A program made the position numbers and the translations under genes. From Zingiber officinale (taxonomy: Eukaryota; Streptophyta; Magnoliopsida; Zingiberales; Zingiberaceae): a stretch of 64,000 bases of DNA. Shown in pieces: positions 1 to 54,400 of the stretch (position 1 is its first letter; each line of letters opens with the position of its first letter). Under the pieces are notes generated by a model. That model had not been told where the DNA came from and did no database searches. It was given only the letters and a program-made list of their open reading frames with translations. The DNA is taken from contig NC_055996.1 in NCBI RefSeq assembly GCF_018446385.1, positions 131,116,532-131,180,531 on the forward strand, read 5' to 3'.

Positions 1-1913
1 GTTAATAATGCATCTCCCCAATAGGAAATTGGCAAATTAGCTTGCGCCATCATAGACCTAACCATTTCAAGAAGAGTCCTATTTCTTCTTTCAGCTACCC
101 CATTTTGCTGTGGAGTTCCAGGGATTGTCAGCTGTCTAATAATCCCTCTATCATTACATATTGTCTTGAACATATCAGGCAAATACTCCCCACCACGGTC
201 AGTGCGTAAAGCTTTAACTTTACGTTCCGTTTGATTTTCAACTTCGTTCATATAACGAATAAAGCAATCTAATGCTTCGGATTTGTGAGAAATCAAATAC
301 ACATGACCGAACCTAGAGAAATCATCAATAAATGTAATGAAATAGGAAGCTCCATGTCTAGCCTTCACATTCATTGGACCACAAATATCCGAATGAATTA
401 ACTGCAATGTTGATTCAGATCTAATAGCCTTACCAAATGGTTTCCTAGTTGCTTTTCCAGCAAGACAATGCTCACATATAGACAATTGAATCTTAGCTCG
501 AGTGCCCAATAAACCCTCTTTAGCTAATCGATTCATACGTTCTTGTCCTATGTGTCCTAATCTAGCATGCCAAACCTCATCAGTTATATCTGCATCACTA
601 GTTAAAGCAATGTTTGAAAAACAACCATCAATAGCATAATTGACATCTGGTTCTATATCAAGAACCATAAAACCATTTGTTAAATAACCATATCCGATTG
701 ACACTGAGTCAATCTTAAGTTCAACAGACCGACTGTAAAAATTAATACAATACCCTAAATCAAGAAGACACGTAACGGAAACAAGATTCCGTCGAATTTC
801 AGGAGCATACAGGACATCATGTAGAAATAAAACTCTACCACCACGTAGGTTGAGTTTGCAAGTGCCGACTCCTTTGACTTCAACTCTTGCATTATTTTCC
901 ACATAGATCCACTTGTTGCCAGCTGGTACCCGACGGTACTCAACAAATGTAACTCGTTCTCGAGCTACATGGTTGGTTGCTCCCGAATCTATAATCCACA
1001 AAGGATAAGAATCAGCTAACAACACTGAACTAGCAACAAAATGCTCTTGAAAAGAAGACACACTTGGATTTACCTTTTTCGGCTCAGTGCACTCCCGAGC
1101 AAAATGACCCTTTTTGCCACAGTTAAAACAAGTCAACTTGTTTTTAGGTTTCTTTCCAGTCTTCTTAGCTACCTTCTTGATTGAGCCTTGTCCCACAACA
1201 GCAGCTTCCTTCTTCTTTCCCTTCCCTTTCTTGAACCATTTCCTTTTCTTGGATCCATATGATCCTGCAGAACCTACAGCCACATAGGCTTGTCCAGAAA
1301 TCCTTGCGGATTCAACTCTCTCCGCCTCCAATTCTACATGGCGTGAGACATCAGTGAAAGTCTTGATACTCTCACTGTGAGTTAAGGTCTGCTTCATGGT
1401 TTCCCAAGAATCTGGAAGTGAACGTATAACTGCTTGAACCTGTTGTTCATCAGTCAACTCATGACCAGCAATTTTAAGCTCCCGAATCATGTTCGACATC
1501 TCCCTGAGGTGTTGAACCATTGACATATTCGGACGCTTTTTGTAGCTGTCAAATTTAATTGTCAGCTGTCGAAGCTTGCTCAGACTTACTCCACTGTATT
1601 TTTCTTTAAGGGCAACCCAGACTTCATGAGCCGTAAGATATGACTCATATTCAAAAGCTAGGTCGTCTACCATTGAACTAATCAATATACCCTTTGCAGT
1701 GGAGTCCTTTTTCTTCCATGCCTTATAGGCATCAAGATCTCGTCTGTGTTGTGCAGTGGGACCATCAACAGGTACTTCCATAACCTGATTTACAGCCTCT
1801 AGAACTTCTTGTTCCTCAAGTACATATTGTATCTTGAGGTGCCAGATCTTGTAGTTATCCCCATTAAGTTTTTCACCTTTGTTGAGTTCAGCTATTATGT
1901 TTTTGGTTGCCAT
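1..1913 (-). CDS. Ty1-copia gag-pol polyprotein, intact but cut by window edge
   Basis: The minus strand is open from ATG at 1913-1911 to base 1, about 637 codons with no stop, so the gene continues outside the window. Gag comes first. A CCHC zinc knuckle lies at residues 262-275 (CX2CX4HX4C, preceded by a Lys-rich stretch). The aspartic protease active site DSGA is at residue 309. The integrase zinc-binding His begins near residue 449, and the DD35E catalytic residues are D509, D572 and E608. The order gag-protease-integrase before any reverse transcriptase is that of Ty1-copia (Pseudoviridae). The protein would package and integrate the element's cDNA. Reverse transcriptase and RNase H must lie beyond the left edge. 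No frameshift or stop is visible, in contrast to every other copia copy in this window, so the insertion looks young. The lineage within copia was not assigned. Confidence 0.93.
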   Translation of the reverse strand, partial: MATKNIIAELNKGEKLNGDNYKIWHLKIQYVLEEQEVLEAVNQVMEVPVDGPTAQHRRDLDAYKAWKKKDSTAKGILISSMVDDLAFEYESYLTAHEVWVALKEKYSGVSLSKLRQLTIKFDSYKKRPNMSMVQHLREMSNMIRELKIAGHELTDEQQVQAVIRSLPDSWETMKQTLTHSESIKTFTDVSRHVELEAERVESARISGQAYVAVGSAGSYGSKKRKWFKKGKGKKKEAAVVGQGSIKKVAKKTGKKPKNKLTCFNCGKKGHFARECTEPKKVNPSVSSFQEHFVASSVLLADSYPLWIIDSGATNHVARERVTFVEYRRVPAGNKWIYVENNARVEVKGVGTCKLNLRGGRVLFLHDVLYAPEIRRNLVSVTCLLDLGYCINFYSRSVELKIDSVSIGYGYLTNGFMVLDIEPDVNYAIDGCFSNIALTSDADITDEVWHARLGHIGQERMNRLAKEGLLGTRAKIQLSICEHCLAGKATRKPFGKAIRSESTLQLIHSDICGPMNVKARHGASYFITFIDDFSRFGHVYLISHKSEALDCFIRYMNEVENQTERKVKALRTDRGGEYLPDMFKTICNDRGIIRQLTIPGTPQQNGVAERRNRTLLEMVRSMMAQANLPISYWGDALL

Positions 1914-2355
1914 AATTTATCATAAATAAACACATTATTTAGTATTCAGTGTAAATCATATGTATGCAATTTATGATTGACTTAATATTACTTTGAGTTG
2001 GTTTACAAAATCAAGTGACAACTGTGTTTTCACTTATCATCCGTATGACCAATCAAATTAATATTAATCAATTCTATTACATACATCCAAACAAATGAAC
2101 TAATCATTTATAATATCATGAATTCATTAATTAAATAAACTAATCATTTAACATATCATGTTTTTTTTTAATTAAATGAACTAATCATTTAATACATTAT
2201 GAACTAATCATGTATCATGTCAAGCAAACAGCATAAATAAATGAACATATCATTAATATAAAATTATGCTGCAAATTGTTAACATATAACCAACTGACAT
2301 GAATGAAATGGACTAACTATTGTTCATACAAAACGACAATAAAAATAACAGAACT
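1914..2355 (-). other. AT-rich spacer between extra ORF and gag
   Basis: This 440-bp spacer contains several near-repeats of a motif like aactaatcatttaat (about 2090-2220). I see no coding frame. It could hold an intron or an internal ribosome entry region for gag, but nothing in the sequence proves either. Confidence 0.5.
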
Positions 2356-2901
2356 CTAATAAACTAGATAGGCAACTACCACTCCCACTAGGACAGACAC
2401 TAGTGCAGTGGCTAATATAATCCCTCTCAGCCTGGACTCATTTGGGGTAATCCCAGGCAAGACAGCTTCAAGATTTTCAATTGGATCCCACACACACTCT
2501 CCCAGATCCTCTTCAGATTCATCTGGATCTTCAGGCTCTTCTGAATGCTCTTCAGATTCTTCTGGATCCTCCTCTGGAGGATCTTCTGAATCCTCTTCAG
2601 ATTCATCTGGATCCTCCTCTGGGTCTTCAGGACCCCAATAGAGATGTAGCAACTGTCTGCACATCTCTGAGTACGAGATGTGTCCATCATAATCATCCCA
2701 AAGTTGGAATGCTATCTGCCTAAGGTTTTCTGGCAGTGAATAGACTAGAGCAAATCTTCCGTGTGTGTCTTCTACTCGCTCGAGTTTCCAGAACAACCGA
2801 TCGAGCCGACCAATAAGCCATCCGAGTCCTAGAACAGGGTCGAAATCAAGCTCCTTAATCTCCTCCCAAAGCTCATGTTGTCGTGAATCACGACTAGCCA
2901 T
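2356..2901 (-). CDS. Extra retrotransposon ORF: EF-hand-like, acidic, tail-anchored protein
   Basis: This 181-codon ORF lies on the gag-pol strand, between the primer-binding site and gag. ATG is at 2901 and TAG at 2356-2358. Three parts are visible. Residues 1-90 look globular; residues 59-88 read like an EF-hand, with a helix, then DDYDGHISYSEM, then a helix. The loop has acidic residues at 70 and 72, Gly73, Ile75 and Glu79, but Trp sits where the first Asp should be, or the loop is one residue short. Residues 91-132 are almost entirely Glu, Asp, Ser and Pro, from short imperfect DNA repeats. Residues 160-181 form one hydrophobic helix ending at the stop, as in tail-anchored membrane proteins. 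Extra ORFs upstream of gag are known in Ogre/Tat Ty3-gypsy elements. I do not recognise this protein family. It could be a captured host gene or an element-specific accessory protein. Confidence 0.7.
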   Translation of the reverse strand: MASRDSRQHELWEEIKELDFDPVLGLGWLIGRLDRLFWKLERVEDTHGRFALVYSLPENLRQIAFQLWDDYDGHISYSEMCRQLLHLYWGPEDPEEDPDESEEDSEDPPEEDPEESEEHSEEPEDPDESEEDLGECVWDPIENLEAVLPGITPNESRLRGIILATALVSVLVGVVVAYLVY

Positions 2902-4252
2902 CTGAAAAATTGAAAAATAAATAAGTCAGTACAAAACCGACTAACCAGTACAAAACCGGCTTATTTCAATTTATACAGGCATAGTACCAACATAATAAAT
3001 CAAGAAAAAACAAATCTTCTCGATTTTCAGGAGTTTAAGTCGACAATTAGAACTAATCTAATTGGTCAGACCCATTGGATCGGTTGATTAAGGATCCAGA
3101 TCCTAAGCTCAGTCCATTGTCCTTAATTAGAACTAATCTAATTGGACAGGGATTTTTGTACCTATGTTCTGTTAATTTTTCTCTAAGTCCATTTCAACCA
3201 ATTTCAGACTTATTGATCAAACTCAGATCCGTTTGATCAAACCAATGTCATTGGTTTAAGTCTGACCAGTTAGAACAAATCTGATTGTTTTGATCAAATC
3301 TGACTCAATTGAACAAATCTGGTCATTTGATCATATTTGGTCCAAGTCCAATTAATCAACCCAAATTAATTTCGGGTTAAGATCAAATTGGTTCGGTTAA
3401 ATCAACTAATGATTTATACTTGAACCGGGTCTAAATAAACCAACCAATTTAAACCTACCTAATTAATTAAAATTAGACCAACAATCATAATTCTAATTAA
3501 TTTTAACATGCATAATATATATATATTTTTTAAACACAGAAGCTTAAAAAAAATTTACAGGAAGAGCCATTCGAAAATAAAAGGTTTCGTTTTTTTTTAA
3601 AAAATTGCATGCAACACCTTTTATATATATATAAATTTGATTTTTTTAAATCAAACTTTTCCTCATGAAATGTTTTCATGAAGCACGTTCTTCCCCTTTT
3701 TTTTTAGCATCCCGTTTTCTCCGCCGCCCGCTGCCCGCTGCCCACGCACGCTGACCACGTTCGCAGTTCACACATCGTGCACGTTGTGCACGCCGTCTCA
3801 GCCGCGCACCAGCGACAAACATGGTACAGAAACGGCAAGAGGCCGAGGCCGCCTTAAGCACGAAGTCGGCATTTTCTTCACCACAATCTATTCGCCGCCC
3901 ATCACCACAGTGCCTCACCCACGACGAACGCAGGTAGCAAGTCTCTGCTTGTGCAGAAATTGTGAGAGGCAGCAGCCATGAGCACTCCGTCAACCAACCA
4001 AGACGCCATCATAGGCCACATAATGCCTTCACCGGTATTTCATTGCGGCCTAAGCCCTGCTTTAATGGAAATCACTAGAGCAGCGACGTTAACGCCGATG
4101 GTGACTCTTACCAGCGACCCTGTCGCTGGTGAGCGACGTCGTATGCTACGACACATTAGTCGTGCAAAAGACAGTGACGAGAAATGGCAAATCGAGAAAA
4201 CATCGGAACAACGATTTTATAATTCGTCTTATGCATTTAGAAATAACTACGT
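2902..4252 (-). other. Long 5' leader of copia element
   Basis: About 1.35 kb separates the primer-binding site from the extra ORF. The part near the primer site (3690-4240) is GC-richer, and 3000-3660 is AT-rich with repeated ggtcaaatctga-type phrases. Short ORFs occur on both strands (for example 3676-3993 minus) but none resembles a known protein. Most copia leaders are only a few hundred bases at most, so this one is unusually long and may contain an intron or a captured segment. Confidence 0.6.
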
Positions 4253-4264
4253 GCTCTGATACCA
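4253..4264 (-). other. Primer-binding site (initiator Met-tRNA)
   Basis: The minus strand reads TGGTATCAGAGC one base after the LTR end. This is the standard plant copia primer site, complementary to the 3' end of initiator methionine tRNA. It fixes the element's orientation and its LTR boundary. Confidence 0.92.
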
Positions 4265-4265
4265 A

Positions 4266-4595
4266 TGTTGAATATATGTTCTAAATGTATGTTAGATGAA
4301 TTAATTAAATGCGGTAAAAACTTACAGCGATCTCCCGCAGATCTGCAATCGACAATGACGAAGCTCGCTATCGGAAGAGCGATCACAGGATCGGAAAGCC
4401 CTCCGCAATTCCACAAACCAAATCCCGCCGCTTTGGATGTTCACCTCTTACTCTCGTCGCACGATCGCGATTTCTCACCCTGAGCCTTGGACGGACCCCC
4501 TTTATATAGGGAAATACCCTAGGGGCATAATGGACATTTCCATTATGTGTAGTGGGGAACATGGGCCACGTTCCCCACTATCCCCATTTCTAACA
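4266..4595 (-). repeat. 5' LTR of the left-hand copia element
   Basis: In minus orientation the LTR starts TGTTAGAAATGG at 4595 and ends TTCAACA at 4266, 330 bp, and the primer-binding site follows directly. The flanking five bases outside (gaaag, 4596-4600) should recur at the far end of the element if it is complete. Confidence 0.85.
4501..4508 (-). promoter_or_regulatory. TATA box in copia LTR
   Basis: TATATAAA on the minus strand lies about 90 bases into the LTR, a suitable place for the U3 promoter that starts genomic RNA synthesis. Confidence 0.55.
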
Positions 4596-7550: not shown

Positions 7551-7596
7551 AATAATAATAATAATAATTATTATTATTATTATTATTATTATTATT
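7551..7596 (+). repeat. AAT/ATT microsatellite
   Basis: Six AAT units run into about ten ATT units, forming a palindromic trinucleotide tract immediately left of a GC-rich insertion. A matching AAT tract lies on the other side at 8485-8501. Confidence 0.9.
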
Positions 7597-8484
7597 GATC
7601 CTGTCCGAGAGTCGAGTCGACGGACGTTGGGGAGAGGACGCTCACTTTGACTGGATGTAGACTGAAGATGACGTGGACCTACAACGAGTTAAGCCTGCAA
7701 CCACAAGTCGTTAGTGCCAAGCCAGGGAGGGGTTCCCTGACAATGACCCTCCGACGCTCAAGTCAGTCACCGACGGCAAACGAATGAAGTGGAGAAGAGA
7801 AAAGAGCAGCGGCGTAATTGTGGCTACAGTAGTCGTGAGCATACCTCCGTCGAAGCCTGGAAATCTTTATATAGGGCTCCCGGGAGGCGCGTGCACGCTT
7901 CTCAAAGCATACCTGGAAAGGTTGTGTCAGAAAAGCGTGTCTGACGCGATACCCTAACAACCCGAGCATATCCTTGATGCGACAGTGGAAGCTTCCACTG
8001 TACGATTCTCCATCTGCCCATATCGCCAACCATGTCACCTGCCGATGACACGGGTCCCTAGAAAGATATCACCAACTGCTCCTTTTGTCCGTTATTGGGC
8101 CGAGCGGGAGAGCCGCTCGACCAATCTGTCGTCCGGGTGACATCATGGCCGGACCGAGCGGGAGAGTTTGCTCGGCCAATGGTGCGCTGTCTCGGCTCCG
8201 TCTTGTCAAGCGAGGGAGGCGTGCTTGCTTGGTCAGGGCTACGTCCACTGTTCAATAGAGCGGGATGGTCGTTTGACTTTTGTCCTTCCATGCTTGAGCT
8301 TTTTGAGTGTTGGAAGCTCAGTATTTGGTTGAGCTATCGTAGTGTCGGATCGGCTACTCTTCATGCCGACCGGGAAGGTGGTTCGCCCGATCGGATGCTT
8401 GCCCAGGACGTTGCCCACTTTGCCTATGATTCTCCACATGATGATAACCTCCTACTAGATGGGCCCCACCCTTACTACCGGATC
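7597..8484. mobile_element. GC-rich transposon-like insertion in ATT tract
   Basis: About 890 bp of GC-rich DNA sits in an AT-rich neighbourhood. It begins GATCCTGTCC and ends TACCGGATC, so GATCC preceded by ATT repeats forms a short inverted terminal repeat. It contains repeated gctcggcc/gagcggg phrases and a 141-codon ORF (8095-8520) that runs out through the microsatellite and looks accidental. I could not assign it to a superfamily. It is probably non-autonomous. Confidence 0.5.
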
Positions 8485-8940
8485 AATAATAATAATAATA
8501 AAATGACCACTTATATTTGAATGATCTCTTTCTCATTTTCAAAATAATAGGATGAGAGTAGTGATATGTATAGAGAAAAATATTAAGAAAATATTTTGAG
8601 ATACATACATAAATTCATGATCCGTTATTTAATTTTTTTTTTTATGGTTCTCATTATTTCTATGTCTATTCTTGAGATTTTCTCCATGTACATATTATTT
8701 TTCTAAGAATTGATTAGTAATTTAATACTCAATAAATACTAAACACATTCATTAACTAATAATACGCTTCCCAGTTTTTAAGATATTAAGAATAAATTAA
8801 TAAATAAATAAATTTTCTCTAATAAATAACTCTTCGTTTTAGAAATTTCACAAATTTTATACGGTAAATTTTACTGACCAGAATTTGACCAGCTTGAAAA
8901 TTCACTTGAGGGTCAACCCTGTTGAGCACACCAAATACAA
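8485..8940. other. AT-rich intergenic DNA
   Basis: It starts with an AAT microsatellite (8485-8501). I see no gene, RNA or clear transposon end in the remainder. Confidence 0.4.
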
Positions 8941-20594: not shown

Positions 20595-21192
20595 GTTAAT
20601 ATAATCAAGTCAATGGAGTATAATTAAGTGTTACTAAATTAGTAATTTTTATATTAACTTATAAATAGACGATTTATTATGAATGAATTATATTTAAAAT
20701 TATTTTATCCTCCGTGTCTATCCTCCATCTTTTACTATTGTGTAAAACTTTCGGATTTTATAACACAAGCTAGCCAACTGTAGGTACCCTTCTAATTATG
20801 ATCGCATTGTTTAATCCGTTTAAACTTAAATATAATTCTTTTAATAGATCTCTTAGAAATCTAATGAGGCCCAAAATAATTACATGAAGCGTTTCTTTTA
20901 AGCAACGGACTTGGAAATTTGTTATGAATGCCTGCGGCGTTAACGACGAAGATTTAATGAATACCCACATCACTGCCATGGCCAGCTGGAATTTGTAAGC
21001 AATCTGGTTGGAGATCCAACCATTTTTAATAATCCAATACCTTTTTAATAATCCATCATAAAGAAAGACCGGAAGCGGGAGTCATCGTCCTGCAAATTAT
21101 TTATTTATTTATTGCTTCTCTTTTCCTTCTCCTCCAAGCTGCTAGCCAGATCCACACCCAACAACTTGTGCATCCTTAATTCATCCGGAGCT
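20595..21192 (+). other. Upstream region of the CNL gene
   Basis: This holds the presumed promoter and 5' leader of the resistance gene. An AT-only tract at 21098-21114 (ttatttattt repeats) could serve as a weak TATA region but is very close to the ATG. No W-box cluster was evident by eye. Confidence 0.4.
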
Positions 21193-24100
21193 ATGGAAGC
21201 AGCTTTAGTAACTGCTGCGTCTCGCTTCATGGTCCAGAATGTGTCAGATCTCCTCCAACTCGACGAGAAACTCAAGGCAATAACTGCAAGTAACAAAACG
21301 AAGATGAAGAAGCTCAAGGAGTTGTCCGCGATCATTGACGCGGTGATCCAAGATGTTGACTCCCGCCCTTTTATTGATGCTGCTGTGAAGATCTTGCTGA
21401 CGAAGCTCAAATACTTGGCCTACGATCTCGAGGATGTTGTGGATTACTATGACACCACAGTCTTGCAGAAGAAGCAGAGATCAAACAGTACTTCTTTAAG
21501 GCTGGTGCGTGATTTCTTCTCTCCTAATAATCAAGTTGTTTTTAAGAGTAGGATAGGTGGCATGATAAAAGCTATAACAGAAAGTCTGGATTCTATTTTG
21601 CTGCAAAAGTCCGTTCTTCTCGATTTGCCACAAAGCACGTCGGAACCACGTCTCTACAGAGAGACCCACTCCCGCAATAGCTTTGTTGTTATAGGGAGAG
21701 AACCAGAGAGGAATAAGATTGTCGACTTGTTAACAAAGGATGATGATGATGAAAGCAACCATGGCACAGTGAAGGTCATTGCCATTGCTGGGATGGGTGG
21801 CTTGGGGAAGACTACACTTGCTCAGCATGTTTTCGATGATGAGAGGGTGAAAGCTCAGTTTGAAAATTCAAGAATGTGGACAGTTGTTGGGGCTGAATTT
21901 GACCCTGCAAAGGTAATGAAATCTGTTTTAGAAGCAGCTACTGATGCACCAGTCAACATCTCACAAATAGATTCAGTGAGACAGAACATAGAAAAAGCAC
22001 TATCTGGGAGGAAATTTCTGCTCGTTCTTGATGATGTCTGGAATGAAGATCCATTAAAGTGGGGCATACTAAAAGCAGCCTTGACATGTGGGGTGAGGGG
22101 AAGCAAAATTTTGGTGACAACCCGTAACCAACAGGTGTCTAAAATTATGGGCTCATCCAATACCACCCACCAATTACAACAGTTGTCCCAAGATGATTGT
22201 CTGTCCTTGTTTCAACAATTTGCTTTTGGAGACGAAGCAGTGGATCAAAAGCTGGTGAAAATTGGTGAAAAGATTGTTGAGAAATGTGGCGGTGTGCCCT
22301 TGGCTGCCATATCTCTTGGTAACATGCTCCGTGGCACTCGAGATGAGACTTATTGGTCCTCAGTATTGAAGAGTGAAATATGGCAACTCCGAGATGAGGA
22401 AGATAAAGTGTTAGCTATACTAAAGTTGAGCTATGACGCTCTCCCCCCACGGTCAAAGAAGTGTTTTGCATTTGCCTCCCTATTCTCAAAAAATTATAAG
22501 ATGGCAAAGGATGAACTCATAAAACTATGGATAGCAAATGATTTTGTACGCTCGGACAAGAATTTTGATGCTGAAACAATTGGCAACAACGTCTTTGATG
22601 AACTTGTAAATAAGTCGTTCTTTCTCTCAGCATCTATTAGGAAGCGTAATTATAGAGATTTTTCCTGGGAACCTTCCAATGAGCTTGATTGTGAAGATGC
22701 TTGCACAATGCATGATTTGATGCATGATCTGGCACGATCAGTATCTGCAAATGCATATTGGAATTCTGATCAAGACTCGGTGGAAGATGTTGGAAACAGA
22801 ACATATCATGTGCAAATACAAGGAGGAGAGGAATCAAGCATGGCTCAGGTCTTAGGCAAGAGACCATTGTACTTGCGCACCTTTATGGCCCAAAATCCAT
22901 CATCAGGTTTGAGTATCAATCTGCTTGAAGTCTTCTCAGAACTGAAATTTTTGCGGGTGTTAGATTTAAGTTACAATCACATCAAAGAGGTGCCGACGTC
23001 AATAGGAAATCTGATACTTTTGAGGTACCTCAACTTATCTAACAATAATATTGAAGTTCTACCCGACTCCATAACCCTTCTCTCCAATTTACAGTATCTC
23101 AATCTCAGTTTCAATGAGGAATTTCAAGAGCTACCAAAAAAGTTAGGGAATATTCAAAACCTTCGGGATCTTGATTTAACATGTGGTTTTTTTGAAAGTG
23201 ATTTTAGATTGACACACATGCCTAGTGGATTATCTCGACTTACTAATCTTCGAAGTTTAAGTCTCTTTGTTGCTGGGGACAGAATTGGTGCATGCTCAAT
23301 TATAGAGCTTGAGGATTTGAAGCTTCAAGGAGGAATGACAATTAAATTTTCCAAAAATTTTACAAATTATTCTTGTGGTGGAAGAAAAATCTTGAAGAAT
23401 CAAGATCTTAATGCACTGTGGATCGAGTTTAATAATTCAGACAGATATGACAAGGACATGTTGGATGATCTTTGTCCCAACACGAGTTTAAAGCAGTTAA
23501 CCATATCCAACTATGGGAGTCCACAATTTCCAACATGGTTGATGGAGTCACAATTGCCAAATTTGGTTGAAGTTAACCTTCAAAAATGCTTCAGTTGTGA
23601 ACATATTCCTCCGTTTGGAAATCTGCAGTTTCTTAAGAAGCTTGACTTAAAGTTTATCAGTGACATCACACATATGGGTGCTGAGTTCCATGGGTACGGA
23701 GGATTTCCTTCCCTTCAAGAACTCTGCTTGTCTTCGATGGATAATTTAGAGGAATGGTCAGAGTCTCATGGTGTCGATGAGTTGTTCCCTAAACTGCAGC
23801 TGCTGCAGGTTTTCGATTGTTTCAAATTGAAAAGTATGCCGAGACTTCCTACAATCCAACACCTTGATATATCATACTGTAGTGGGAGCCTACTCTCATG
23901 TATTGGAAGGCTAACTTCTCTTTCTGTTCTCAGTGTGGATGGTATGAATGACATGACATCTCTTCCAAGTGACTGCATCAGAAACCTCACATCTTTGAAG
24001 GAATTAGAAATTATAAATTGCAGGCAACTCCAGTCTCTTCCTGGGGATGAAATGCAGCACCTAGAAATGCTTCGTTCGTTAACCATTGACAATTGTGATA

Positions 24101-24675
24101 ATTTGGCATCCTTCCCTTCAGAAGTGGGGCGTCTTAGTTCTCTTTGTTCTCTACAGCTCTCAAATTGTCCAATTATAATATTGCAGCCACAAGAACTCAT
24201 ACAAATCTTGAATTCAGTAGATGAGTTCGAAATAGAGATTTGTAACAAGAAAGTCAATTTACTTGGGCAACTGCAATACTTGCACACTCTCAAAGACTTG
24301 TCTCTATGCGGTGCACATGATCATAGATCAGATAACTTTACTTTCAGAATTCCAAAATTAAGTATTTGTTGTTGTGATGAATTGAAGTCGTTGATGATAG
24401 CAGAAGCAGCAAGTCATACTGTGCTAGAAGGCATATGCATAAATGGAATCTCCAATCTCACGACCTTGCCTGACTGGCTGCCGCATCTCAAGTCTCTTCG
24501 TTCACTAACAATCGAGAAGTGCCCACGATTAGAAAGGGTGCCAAGGGATTTGAAGGATCTGCCTAAGTTGAGTGAATTGATACTTATCAATTGCCCACGG
24601 CTGGAAGAAAGATGCGAAAGGGAGACAGGCGAAGATTGGCCTATCATCTCACATCTGCTAACTATTTTTATATAA
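21193..24675 (+). CDS. CC-NBS-LRR disease resistance protein (CNL)
   Basis: This intronless gene encodes 1160 aa from ATG at 21193. An in-frame ATG at 21112 would add 27 residues, but MEAALVTAASRF matches the usual CNL start. The coiled-coil/Rx-N domain holds an EDVID-type motif (LEDVVDYY, about residues 79-86). The nucleotide-binding domain has the P-loop GMGGLGKTT (200-208), kinase-2 LLVLDDVW (276-283, with the Trp typical of CNLs), GGVPLA (366-371), RNBS-D beginning CFAFASLF (424) and the MHD motif (506-508). Leucine-rich repeats run from about 560 to the C-terminus. Such proteins are cytoplasmic immune receptors that switch from ADP to ATP on effector recognition and form resistosomes. 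All key motifs are present, so it is probably functional. The pathogen recognised cannot be read from sequence. The closest well-known types are RGA2/RPPR13-like proteins. Confidence 0.95.
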   Translation: MEAALVTAASRFMVQNVSDLLQLDEKLKAITASNKTKMKKLKELSAIIDAVIQDVDSRPFIDAAVKILLTKLKYLAYDLEDVVDYYDTTVLQKKQRSNSTSLRLVRDFFSPNNQVVFKSRIGGMIKAITESLDSILLQKSVLLDLPQSTSEPRLYRETHSRNSFVVIGREPERNKIVDLLTKDDDDESNHGTVKVIAIAGMGGLGKTTLAQHVFDDERVKAQFENSRMWTVVGAEFDPAKVMKSVLEAATDAPVNISQIDSVRQNIEKALSGRKFLLVLDDVWNEDPLKWGILKAALTCGVRGSKILVTTRNQQVSKIMGSSNTTHQLQQLSQDDCLSLFQQFAFGDEAVDQKLVKIGEKIVEKCGGVPLAAISLGNMLRGTRDETYWSSVLKSEIWQLRDEEDKVLAILKLSYDALPPRSKKCFAFASLFSKNYKMAKDELIKLWIANDFVRSDKNFDAETIGNNVFDELVNKSFFLSASIRKRNYRDFSWEPSNELDCEDACTMHDLMHDLARSVSANAYWNSDQDSVEDVGNRTYHVQIQGGEESSMAQVLGKRPLYLRTFMAQNPSSGLSINLLEVFSELKFLRVLDLSYNHIKEVPTSIGNLILLRYLNLSNNNIEVLPDSITLLSNLQYLNLSFNEEFQELPKKLGNIQNLRDLDLTCGFFESDFRLTHMPSGLSRLTNLRSLSLFVAGDRIGACSIIELEDLKLQGGMTIKFSKNFTNYSCGGRKILKNQDLNALWIEFNNSDRYDKDMLDDLCPNTSLKQLTISNYGSPQFPTWLMESQLPNLVEVNLQKCFSCEHIPPFGNLQFLKKLDLKFISDITHMGAEFHGYGGFPSLQELCLSSMDNLEEWSESHGVDELFPKLQLLQVFDCFKLKSMPRLPTIQHLDISYCSGSLLSCIGRLTSLSVLSVDGMNDMTSLPSDCIRNLTSLKELEIINCRQLQSLPGDEMQHLEMLRSLTIDNCDNLASFPSEVGRLSSLCSLQLSNCPIIILQPQELIQILNSVDEFEIEICNKKVNLLGQLQYLHTLKDLSLCGAHDHRSDNFTFRIPKLSICCCDELKSLMIAEAASHTVLEGICINGISNLTTLPDWLPHLKSLRSLTIEKCPRLERVPRDLKDLPKLSELILINCPRLEERCERETGEDWPIISHLLTIFI

Positions 24676-34884: not shown

Positions 34885-35484
34885 TCAGAAGCTCCACAGA
34901 GACGAATCCACGCCGCCGTGATCGGCGGGAGGCGACTCCGGCTCCTCCGAGACGAAGCCGTACATGAAGTCGTCGTCCATGGCGATGGGGAAGTCGACGC
35001 ATTCCACGTCGGGCGGAGCTTCCCTTGACGAATCCATGAACGACCAGTCCAGCGCTTCCTCTGATCTCCCCGCCGAGGAATCCCCCGACGGAGAGTCTGA
35101 AGCCGGAGAAATGGAGATACGCGGGGGGAGGATCGGGGAAGGCGGGGTGCTGGCGGCGTGGAGGGCGGCGGCGGCCTGGATTTGCTGGAAGCTGAGGGGC
35201 CGGACGGCGGCGATGCGGGGCGGGGGGGATTGGGGGAAGTTGAGGCGGGCGCGGCTGCCGCGGAGGCAGGCGGAGGCGGCGTCGAAGGCGCGGGCAGCCT
35301 TCTCCGCGGAGTCGTAGGATCCGAGCCAGATCCGCTCGCGGCTGTTGGGCAGGCGGATCTCCGTCACCCACCGCCCCCATTTCCGCTGCCGCACTCCCTT
35401 ATAGCGCGGCTCCCCTATCTCCGCCGCCGATGCCGCCGTGGAAGGCGATCCACCACCGCCTTCCCTCTCCTTCTTCTCCGACAT
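34885..35484 (-). CDS. AP2/ERF transcription factor, ORA47/ERF018-like (DREB subfamily)
   Basis: This intronless gene encodes 199 aa from ATG at 35484 to TGA at 34885-34887. One AP2/ERF domain spans residues 27-84 ([20 protein letters not shown], then [19 protein letters not shown]), and Val40 is the DREB-type Val14. The match to [19 protein letters not shown] is characteristic of the Arabidopsis ERF016-ERF019 group, which includes ORA47, an activator of jasmonate biosynthesis genes. The C-terminus is acidic, with a Ser-rich linker, and ends SLWSF, as is common in this group; it probably activates transcription. The gene is GC-rich against AT-rich surroundings, as is usual for single-exon monocot genes. 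It converges on the JAZ gene with 777 bp between stop codons. The exact orthologue is uncertain. Confidence 0.92.
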
Positions 35485-35560
35485 TGAGTAACCGAGGGCT
35501 TCCGGATTTTGGCGTTCGACGAAATACCAAATCGTCGAAATGGCGGGAAGCCGATGCCCG

Positions 35561-35568
35561 GTTTATAT
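35561..35568 (-). promoter_or_regulatory. TATA box of the ERF gene
   Basis: ATATAAAC on the minus strand lies about 77 bases upstream of the ERF start codon, which implies a short leader. Confidence 0.6.
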
Positions 35569-51436: not shown

Positions 51437-54400
51437 TGTAGGACCGTTGGGCCGGCTTGAAGGGGGATTGAATAGCCCTGTAAAATAAAAAACAAACCAA
51501 CCCTTCTCGAACTCTTAAACTAACACTTGCATAAAATTAACTTAAACAAGAAAAAGCAAGAAAAGGAAGAGGCACCGGATTTGACTTGGTTACAACCGGG
51601 GTGGTTGTTAATCCAAGAAAGATGATCGCACTATCAATCTCCTTCAGGTGGAGAAGCCTCTTACAACGTTGAAGCTCAGGAAACAGAAGCTAACTACAGA
51701 GAGCGTACAAGTGTTTGAAAGAAATACTTGAGTTCTGAATTGATGAAAAGCTTCTGGACCAAGGCTATATTTATAGCCTTGGTCGGAGCGCCTGGAAAGG
51801 TTCCGGGCGCCCTGGGGGGATAAAACTTTATCCCCCAACGTTCAGATCGCGTAAATCACGATCCTGGTCAAAATCAAGGTCCGGGCGCCCCGGAGCCCAA
51901 AGTCAACAGATGTTGACTTTTTTGTCCGGGACCTCCTCTCTGGTTCAGTCCCGCCTCGGTCCGGTTCTTCTTCTCCGGATCCGCTCGCTTGGGTGATCTC
52001 TGCCATCCGGAAAAGGGCTCACCCGAACCCAATTTCCGGTCTTCTCGAGCGGGCTTCCCTCCGGCTTCTCATCCCTCGGAATCACCGCGTGTTTCCTTCT
52101 CGTCTGCTGGCGTACTCATCCGTAGTCTTTGTCTCTCGGACGCACCGTGGGTCGTCCTTCTCGCTAGCTGCGTCTCTTGCTCCCTAAGCAATCTTTCGCT
52201 CTGGCTTTCGTCCCTCGGAACCACCGCACGCTTCCTTCTCGTCCGCCGGTGTACTCTTCCGCAACACCTCGTCCCTCGGACTACCGTCCTTCTCGCTAGC
52301 TGCGTCTTCCGCTCGACTACCTGTGTTCCTAAGCTCCTGCACACTTAGACACAAGGTTAGAACAACACAGGACCTAACTTAACTTGTTGATCACACCAAA
52401 ACAACCTTGGGGTTCCAACAATCTCCCCCTTTTTGGTGTGATCAACCCAAGTTAAGCTAGGGTTAAAATAGATATTAAATAAAATTAAGTAAATTACTTA
52501 ATTTACAATTTAAGCGCAAAAAGATAGAAAAGATAAAATCTATCTACCTCCCCCTAGACTTATACTTTCCCTTCTCCCCCTTTGATCACAAAAAAAATGG
52601 GGTTCCAAGAAAAACAATCTAAGGGTTAAAGACTTAGAAAAAGTATTTCTTTTTTTTTTAAATGACTTAGGCAAAAAAAATTCTAAGTAAGTATATTTCT
52701 AATTTGAAATAAAATGTTTTGAATAACCTTTTTCAAGCACTAATTAATTCTTGTATTAATGCTTCATTAGTAAGTTAATTAAATATTTATTTCAATATTT
52801 TGGCTTCCAGGTCATGGCGAGGCACTAGACCTTCTTGGTTATTGGAGCAACAACCACTTCCTTAGACAAAGCCTCATAAAGAAATTCTTTGTTTAATTTT
52901 CTCACTTAAAGTGCTAATTTTAATTTTAAAATTAATTTAAGCATGACTTCGGAACCCAATATAGGTTCCAGCCTACTGGATTAACCAAAAAATTTTTAGG
53001 GACATATTTTCTTGAAATGTTCTTAATTTATCCCGAGTGATATTTAAAGTACCAATTTAAATTATTAAATCTTCTAAAATTGGTTTTAGATGAACATGCA
53101 TAGTTTTTCAAGTTATCTACTTGAATTTTCAAATCATCATTTTCAAGTTTCAATTTTTCATTTGCTAGTTTTAATTTATCTAATTCTTCTAAGGGACAAG
53201 ACTTAGCTAGAATTACTTTTAAATTTTTATTTTCACTTTCTAATTTGCAGCAGTCTTTTGTTAAAAGTTTAACAAACTTAAACATTTTATCGGGAGGAAG
53301 AGATCATACCTGACTTACCTTGTCGATCTCGTTGTCCGTTTCTCCCCCTGAGCTGCTGCTTTCTTTCGACGTGTCTCCCCCTTCATCGATGCTCTCGATG
53401 CTCATTTCGGAAGAGCTTGAATCGCAGTCGTCGTCTTGATGACTCGCCATCAGTGCGAGTCCGGAGAATGCTTCGACTTCCGATTCGGACGATGTATCGT
53501 CCCACGTCGCCTTCAGGGCCTTTCGTTTCTGGATAGGCTTCTTACCCTTCTCCTTGTCTTTGTTCTTCAGCTTGGGGCAATTGTCCTTGACATGCCCTTC
53601 TTCGTTGTAGTGGTAGCAGCGAATCGTCTTTTTCTTCTTCCCCTGCGGATGGTTAGTAGATCTAGATTTACAAAGTTTCTTGAATCTTCTTACCATCATT
53701 ACCATTTCCTCATCGTCGAGAGAGGATTCCGACTCAGGTTCGTCTCTCGAAGCTTTGAGGACGACGTTGTTCTTGGGCTCCTTCATTCCTGCACATCTTG
53801 ACTCATAGACTTCAAATGTTGAAAAAAATTCTTCTAATGAAATTTTTTCTAAGTCCTTCGAAATGTAAAGAACATCTACTAGTGATGCCCATTTTAAATT
53901 TCTCGGAAATGAATTTAACGCGTACCTGAGCAAATTTCGATTACTTACCTTTTCTCCGAGATTCGTGAGTCCGGTGATGATTTCTTTTATTCTGGAGTGC
54001 AGATGTGCGACTGTCTCGTCTTCCCCAAGTCACAGGCTGGTGAGCTGATTGCGAAACAGATCTCATCTAGCGAGCTTGGCTTCAGACGTACCTTCATGTA
54101 ACTCGAGGAACTTCTCCCAAAGTTCCTTTGTGGAGTTATATTTACCGATCCTGTTGACTTCTTGAGGCCGAAGAACGCTCAGCAGATGGTATTCTGCTTT
54201 GCCGTTCGCCACGAAGTCGGCCTGCTCCCTTTTTGTCCATTGATTTATTTCCTTGTCCTCTGGAGCTTCAAAGCCAAGTTTCATTGTTAAAATTAATTCA
54301 ATATCCGTAGTAAAAAATACCTACATTAGTTTTTTTTCCAGGTAGCGAAGTCCCCTTCGTATTTCGGCGGGTGGATGCTTGGTCCGACCATCTCGTTGCT

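Follow-up and report, generated by a model that had tools for sequence, protein, structure and literature searches.

A conserved, apparently tail-anchored gene with a capsid-like head upstream of gag in a copia retrotransposon family of ginger

The window analyzed here is a stretch of 64,000 nucleotides from ginger, Zingiber officinale (contig NC_055996.1, positions 131,116,532 to 131,180,531 of the forward strand), whose first 4.6 kb contain the 5′ part of a copia element. All features of this element lie on the minus strand. They are, in order, a 5′ long terminal repeat (LTR) with TG and CA ends (4266..4595); a primer binding site, TGGTATCAGAGC, read directly from the sequence (4253..4264), which we take to be of the tRNA-Met type; a leader of about 1.36 kb; an extra open reading frame (ORF; 2356..2901); an AT-rich spacer of 442 bp that contains 22 AUGs (1914..2355); and the gag-pol frame, which begins with the gag ATG at 1913. 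The first 637 codons of gag-pol (3..1913), in which Pfam recognizes gag, a zinc knuckle, and the start of integrase, extend to the window edge, which falls within integrase; the frame is broken outside the window. An earlier note on this DNA, made from the letters alone, had proposed an additional frame between primer site and gag, and this is borne out: on the gag-pol strand, 181 codons run from ATG to stop at 2901..2356, and the helix-DDYDGHISYSEM-helix segment that it reported is present, with DDYDGHISYSEM at residues 69–80. On the evidence of homologues and of the ratio of nonsynonymous to synonymous substitution rates (dN/dS), this ORF most likely encodes a tail-anchored accessory protein resembling a capsid C-terminal domain (CTD). 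We hold with good confidence, as a well-supported conclusion, that it is an accessory gene of this kind, conserved, tail-anchored in layout, and related to capsid.

A frame of this length was found in only one of 1000 leaders simulated with an order-2 Markov model; the acidic repeats of the ORF favor length, and on the sequence evidence it is the homologues, rather than this statistic, that constitute the real proof. When the ginger genome was searched with the ORF, 153 matches were reported (the best 150 of 5527 first-look candidates were scored). A search with a homologue, P0005, gave 150 matches (the best 150 of 4460 candidates), and with Gag, scoring covered the best 131 of 90,957 candidates. 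In 21 of 22 loci sampled from these 131 best gag matches, at approximately every sixth row by hand count, the ORF lies upstream of gag at least as a remnant, more distant copies falling outside the sample. Eleven of the 22 coincide with places already found by the ORF and P0005 searches (one as a partial match); the other 11 were fetched, and 10 of them carry the ORF or a remnant, the exception being L099. Judged from these copies, the ORF belongs to a copia family that has at least 150 members in ginger. The homologue P0005 has 214 residues, shares the layout of the ORF, is 38% identical in the head, and comes from a contig of 1393 bp, so that the gene may exist outside ginger. No relatives were found in a viral contig collection searched with the ORF, P0005, Gag, and two alignments, or in bacterial and archaeal genome contigs searched with Gag alone.

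The earlier note considered the product a captured or element-specific membrane protein. The second term is appropriate, as the gene is specific to the element, in sense orientation, and upstream of gag. Capture of a host gene was dropped: a protein search with the whole ORF returned five matches with no host relative among them, a search with the first 100 residues of P0005 returned P0005 alone, and in profile comparisons the sister heads match the C-terminal portion of copia Gag. Two named host proteins, P0004 and P0006, match the ORF and resemble gene models that have engulfed copies of it. These Zingiber officinale models, named as a methyltransferase and as SHORT ROOT IN SALT MEDIUM 1-like, are probably annotation artefacts.

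Selection was examined in 59 copies, namely the 20 best ORF matches (the window copy included) and 39 from further down the list; they were chosen by ORF match, which inflates the apparent conservation of the ORF. With that bias, the ORF is intact in 40 of the 59 (20/20 of the best and 20/39 of the others) and its length is a multiple of three in all 59, while the first 188 codons of gag are intact in 29. Variants shared by at least three of the 59 copies were compared with rare ones, stops being counted as nonsynonymous. The nonsynonymous:synonymous counts were 39:25 among shared and 161:51 among rare variants for the ORF (p = 0.025), 11:13 and 82:32 for the head (p = 0.017), and 137:76 and 869:258 for gag (p = 1e-4). 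No clear difference between shared and rare variants appeared in these copies for the tail alone (p = 0.79) or the acidic tract alone (p = 0.10).

The nine heads used for profile work were those of seven of 16 subfamily loci (L076 being partial), of L003, and of P0005; the last, which is without DNA, stands outside the dN/dS set. Loci L061, L062, L064, L065, L068, L069, L073, L074, and L075 were excluded by eye as near-duplicates, recombinants, or broken copies. Among the eight ginger heads, dN/dS is at most 0.40 in 27 of 28 pairs and 1.20 in the remaining one. Within the subfamilies, to which the letters A–D were assigned in this analysis, unsaturated pairs give 0.22 within A, 0.13–0.23 within B, and 0.23–0.40 between B and C; many A–B, A–C, and D pairs have a dS above 1, which makes their ratios rough. 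For the tail (28 codons), values are 0.21–0.69 between A/B and C backbones, and within C they are near or above 1 or lack synonymous change, on very few changes. The dN/dS check across other genomic copies that the earlier note had suggested therefore gave values mostly well below 1 in the head, in agreement with its view that the frame is maintained. By these comparisons, the ORF is under purifying selection.

The head domain (residues 1–90; 2632..2901) has five predicted helices and, judging from an AlphaFold2 (AF2) model, sister-head profiles, and tentative fold matches, looks related to, though diverged from, the C-terminal half of the capsid in copia Gag (CA-CTD). Against a profile of the C-terminal capsid half of the family's own gag, the score of each of the nine heads was reached by only 0–3 of 1000 shuffles, vs 36–488 of 1000 in the N-half control; this run was made without the window head itself and included its close copy L003. 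In Pfam, the best sister head matched Retrotran_gag_2 (PF14223) with E = 6.1e-4 and 19.7 bits over profile positions 78–163 of 172, under the curated cut-off of 27 bits, in a scan of the sister heads without B_L071; the window-type head had no PF14223 match. Support from hhalign was weaker than that from the own-gag profile, and BLASTP of P0005 against the window Gag gave no match. Compared with copia-type Gag, the sister head thus resembles the C-terminal capsid half at a sub-cut-off score, whereas the ORF is without the N-terminal half, and Pfam scans found neither a zinc knuckle nor a full capsid in it. The better AF2 model shows five helices with block values of 74–88 for the predicted local distance difference test (pLDDT). 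The single-sequence model is poor (mean pLDDT 48), and a viral fold search with it returned no retroviral or pararetroviral capsid among nine rows; the capsid fold matches therefore depend on the better model. Foldseek against the PDB gave no match at E < 1.

The head is followed by an acidic tract built from 9/12-bp repeats (residues 91–139; 2485..2631). The earlier note had recognized this tract and given it 42 residues; its length is 49, of which 30 are Asp or Glu, for a net charge of −30 (−43 in the linker of P0005). Gag itself contains, by charge count, a strongly basic stretch (residues 219–262; 1128..1259; net +17), which is a possible partner of the tract, and a role as linker or as contact with basic Gag is favored; the low-affinity calcium buffer that the earlier note had suggested for the tract was dropped. 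The C-terminal transmembrane helix (residues 155–180; 2362..2439) ends one residue before the stop and is indicated by hydropathy and by both AF2 models. The mean Kyte–Doolittle value is 2.7 over residues 161–179 and 0.7 for the next best segment, with no hydrophobic N-terminus; hydropathy supports the single membrane helix described in the earlier note. One helix at the extreme C-terminus and no N-terminal signal is the layout of a tail-anchored protein. Every ginger tail seen whole finishes in a hydrophobic helix, with YLVY or YLVF as the last residues (in L072, the helix carries two acidic residues), and P0005 has a hydrophobic stretch of its own near the C-terminus.

Comparison of subfamilies A (L003) and B (L066 with L077) revealed an abrupt change at the head: the two are 96.6% identical over the 120 bases preceding the ATG and 67–68% identical across the head, whereas identity returns to 93% in the tail, reaches 98% downstream of the stop, and is 96% in gag. 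All six B-headed loci compared lie on an A backbone and all five C loci on a backbone of their own, with the qualification that L078 (the gag of the L070 element) matched only partly and that the gag match of L084 is short. In the six B-headed loci, gag DNA is 96–98% identical to the A backbone (for one locus, the comparison spans just 140 bases), and A-type tails also occur in nine additional B-headed loci. The B heads themselves are closer to C heads. Near-identical elements hence bear two heads that are about 50% identical, and the abrupt changes at the ATG and at the acidic repeats are consistent with recombination between elements. As far as sequences can tell, these comparisons indicate that the front half of the gene, the head, has been exchanged between element lineages. 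In addition, L065 and L069 have recombination points inside the head, with an A-type start and a B-type end (measured in L065).

The ORF may be reached by splicing. A putative 3′ splice site AG (2902..2903) abuts its ATG; among 73 YAG sites from LTR to gag, this one has the highest U content in the 15 preceding bases, and the AG is present in 57 of the 59 copies picked by ORF match. The putative 5′ splice site GTAAGT (4320..4325), within the 5′ LTR, is the only GTAAGT in the 5′ part of the element and is kept in 50 of 55 copies, its GT in 53 of 55. The intron-like leader between them (2902..4325) is less conserved (72–89%) than its 3′ end, where conservation is 98.5% over the 24 scored sites before the ATG. 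There are 28 AUGs between LTR and ORF and none from the estimated transcription start site to the LTR end. In an LTR-driven mRNA spliced at these predicted sites, the AUG of the ORF would come before any other.

For most extra genes of plant LTR retrotransposons, neither origin nor function is known (PMC7264820; PMC6317226). The ginger ORF is comparable to the plant extra ORFs in 5′ sense position, such as the 5′ aORF reported for 500 of 523 sunflower Tekay elements (PMC11728184): it is on the sense strand, between 5′ LTR/primer site and gag, and in most copies of its family (21/22 sampled). However, in the extracts compared, known extra ORFs are mostly from Ty3/gypsy elements or 3′ of pol, unlike this copia ORF, and none is described there as capsid-related and membrane-anchored. 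A reference survey of extra ORFs counted only those of at least 250 codons (PMC6317226). With 181 codons in the window and 188 in L003, the ginger ORF is under this minimum and would have been missed on length alone. The literature searched, insofar as its text was accessible, contained no description of such an ORF. What the ginger family offers is a likely capsid origin, an anchor layout, a likely splicing route, and a natural experiment with two heads, all visible together in a family of at least 150 copies, which makes the role of the gene directly testable.

We propose that the product is an accessory mini-Gag, made of a CA-CTD-like head, an acidic linker, and a membrane anchor, that acts on Gag at a membrane; taken as a whole, this statement has in our estimate an even chance of being correct. 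The protein would be made from spliced LTR-driven RNA and would insert into the endoplasmic reticulum or another internal membrane with its head in the cytosol. The head would touch Gag through a capsid-type interface, the acidic linker would contact the basic stretch of Gag, and Gag or particles would be brought to the membrane by the anchored protein. If the ORF does act on Gag, the copia group would contain either membrane-directed assembly or membrane-held self-control. A more ambitious version, which we consider rather improbable, is that a piece of capsid was turned into a second, spliced and membrane-anchored structural gene that steers particle assembly to the membrane, its head being exchanged by recombination while anchor and gag are kept. 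If true, a plant copia lineage would have arrived independently at a function that retroviruses assign to matrix or envelope tails. Several observations weigh against the mini-Gag proposal. Of the 11 loci retrieved through gag, only 4 have a full-length ORF frame, which indicates that many copies have decayed, like gag. The exon side of the donor is poor, and five other GT sites outscore it on a seven-position count. Beside the conserved sites before the ATG, the ORF head (98.1%) and the spacer (97.5%) are almost as conserved, so that linkage may explain the former. Finally, the exchange of heads on a shared gag makes a finely tuned head–Gag contact less certain.

Action on Gag at the membrane is nevertheless our leading interpretation, ranked ahead of a host-facing role. 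In the latter, the same tail-anchored, capsid-derived protein would be directed at the host, for example at a membrane or silencing factor, and the exchange of heads would reflect changing host partners. The presence of ~50%-identical heads on backbones with 96–98% identical gag DNA in the six B-headed loci is what such a role would lead one to expect, as is a divergence between A and B heads that far exceeds that of tail or Gag. However, no host partner is known, the heads have kept a Gag-like signature, and at the level tested they are under purifying rather than diversifying selection; we therefore judge this role to be somewhat unlikely. Less probable again is a self-limiting factor comparable to Ty1 p22/p18, in which a membrane-held CA-CTD fragment would poison particle assembly. 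Ty1 p18m has been described as a five-helix CA-CTD with a proposed assembly block (PMC8458377). The ginger head is likewise CA-CTD-like and, as in that copia-type element, would be a stand-alone five-helix domain. In contrast, Ty1 p22/p18 is translated from within gag, is identical to it, and is not separately losable, whereas the ginger ORF is a separate, strongly diverged gene with a linker and an anchor. A pure inhibitor should not persist in a many-copy family; a helper is favored over a self-inhibitor, since a selfish element would be expected to shed an inhibitor that it can lose separately, and this gene stays in a family of at least 150 copies.

An envelope-like protein is a very unlikely alternative. 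The single membrane helix and the splice signals before the ATG recall the SIRE and Athila env-like ORFs, for which a membrane helix and a possible spliced message are reported (PMC7264820). The ginger gene, however, precedes gag instead of following pol, its head is Gag-like, its anchor is at the extreme C-terminus, and it has no hydrophobic N-terminal signal. A captured or element-specific EF-hand membrane protein that binds calcium, as suggested in the earlier note, is more improbable still. A canonical EF-hand loop has 12 residues and begins with an acidic residue at position 1. In the loop WDDYDGHISYSE, with Gly taken as position 6, position 1 is Trp, and the ligand pattern is missing in P0005, P0003, and subfamilies B and C, all of which retain this tryptophan together with a tyrosine and two leucines around it. 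No second loop was seen in the ORF. Pfam EF-hand profiles matched the window-type head only, far below the cut-off (E = 0.11 and 0.2). The EF-hand reading was rejected on the first position, the unconserved ligands, and these weak, window-only scores. A chance frame held open by the stop-free 9/12-bp acidic repeats is refuted by the 38%-identical homologue with the same layout, by dN/dS, and by the ORF lengths in multiples of three (59/59 copies picked by ORF match), and its probability is negligible.

The window copy of the element is atypical. Its ORF has 181 residues vs 188 in the reference copy L003, with four fewer in the head and three fewer in the acidic tract. The adjoining 8 kb (L021) carry the 3′ LTR, which is the same as the 5′ LTR at 329 of 329 compared positions. 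However, in L021 gag-pol stays open for only about 118 codons beyond the window edge before it resumes in other frames. The description of the element as intact is thus false for this copy: its open gag-pol frame is 757 residues long, whereas 8 of the 131 listed gag matches have 1330–1334 residues without a stop. LTR identity and the break in the pol frame together point to a recent insertion with a broken pol. Scans of the window with Rfam (at the gathering threshold) and for tRNAs gave no match. A 31-base palindrome, 90% self-complementary, precedes the TATA box of the 5′ LTR (4550–4580) and is present in both LTRs, and the spacer between ORF and gag has three imperfect direct repeats of 40 bases (2093–2213).

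Elsewhere in the window, large frames of NBS-LRR type (assigned by eye) that start with MEAAL are found at 21052–24675 on the plus strand and at the low end of L021 on the minus strand. Since they flank the element on both sides, it seemingly inserted into a resistance-gene cluster. A GC-rich block with TG..CA-like ends at 7596–8486, within a TTA/TAA repeat, is perhaps a solo LTR or another insertion. By eye, the minus strand also has an AP2/ERF-like frame at 34885–35562 and, at 53304–54029, a frame with a CCHC-like knuckle that resembles a further copia-type gag fragment.
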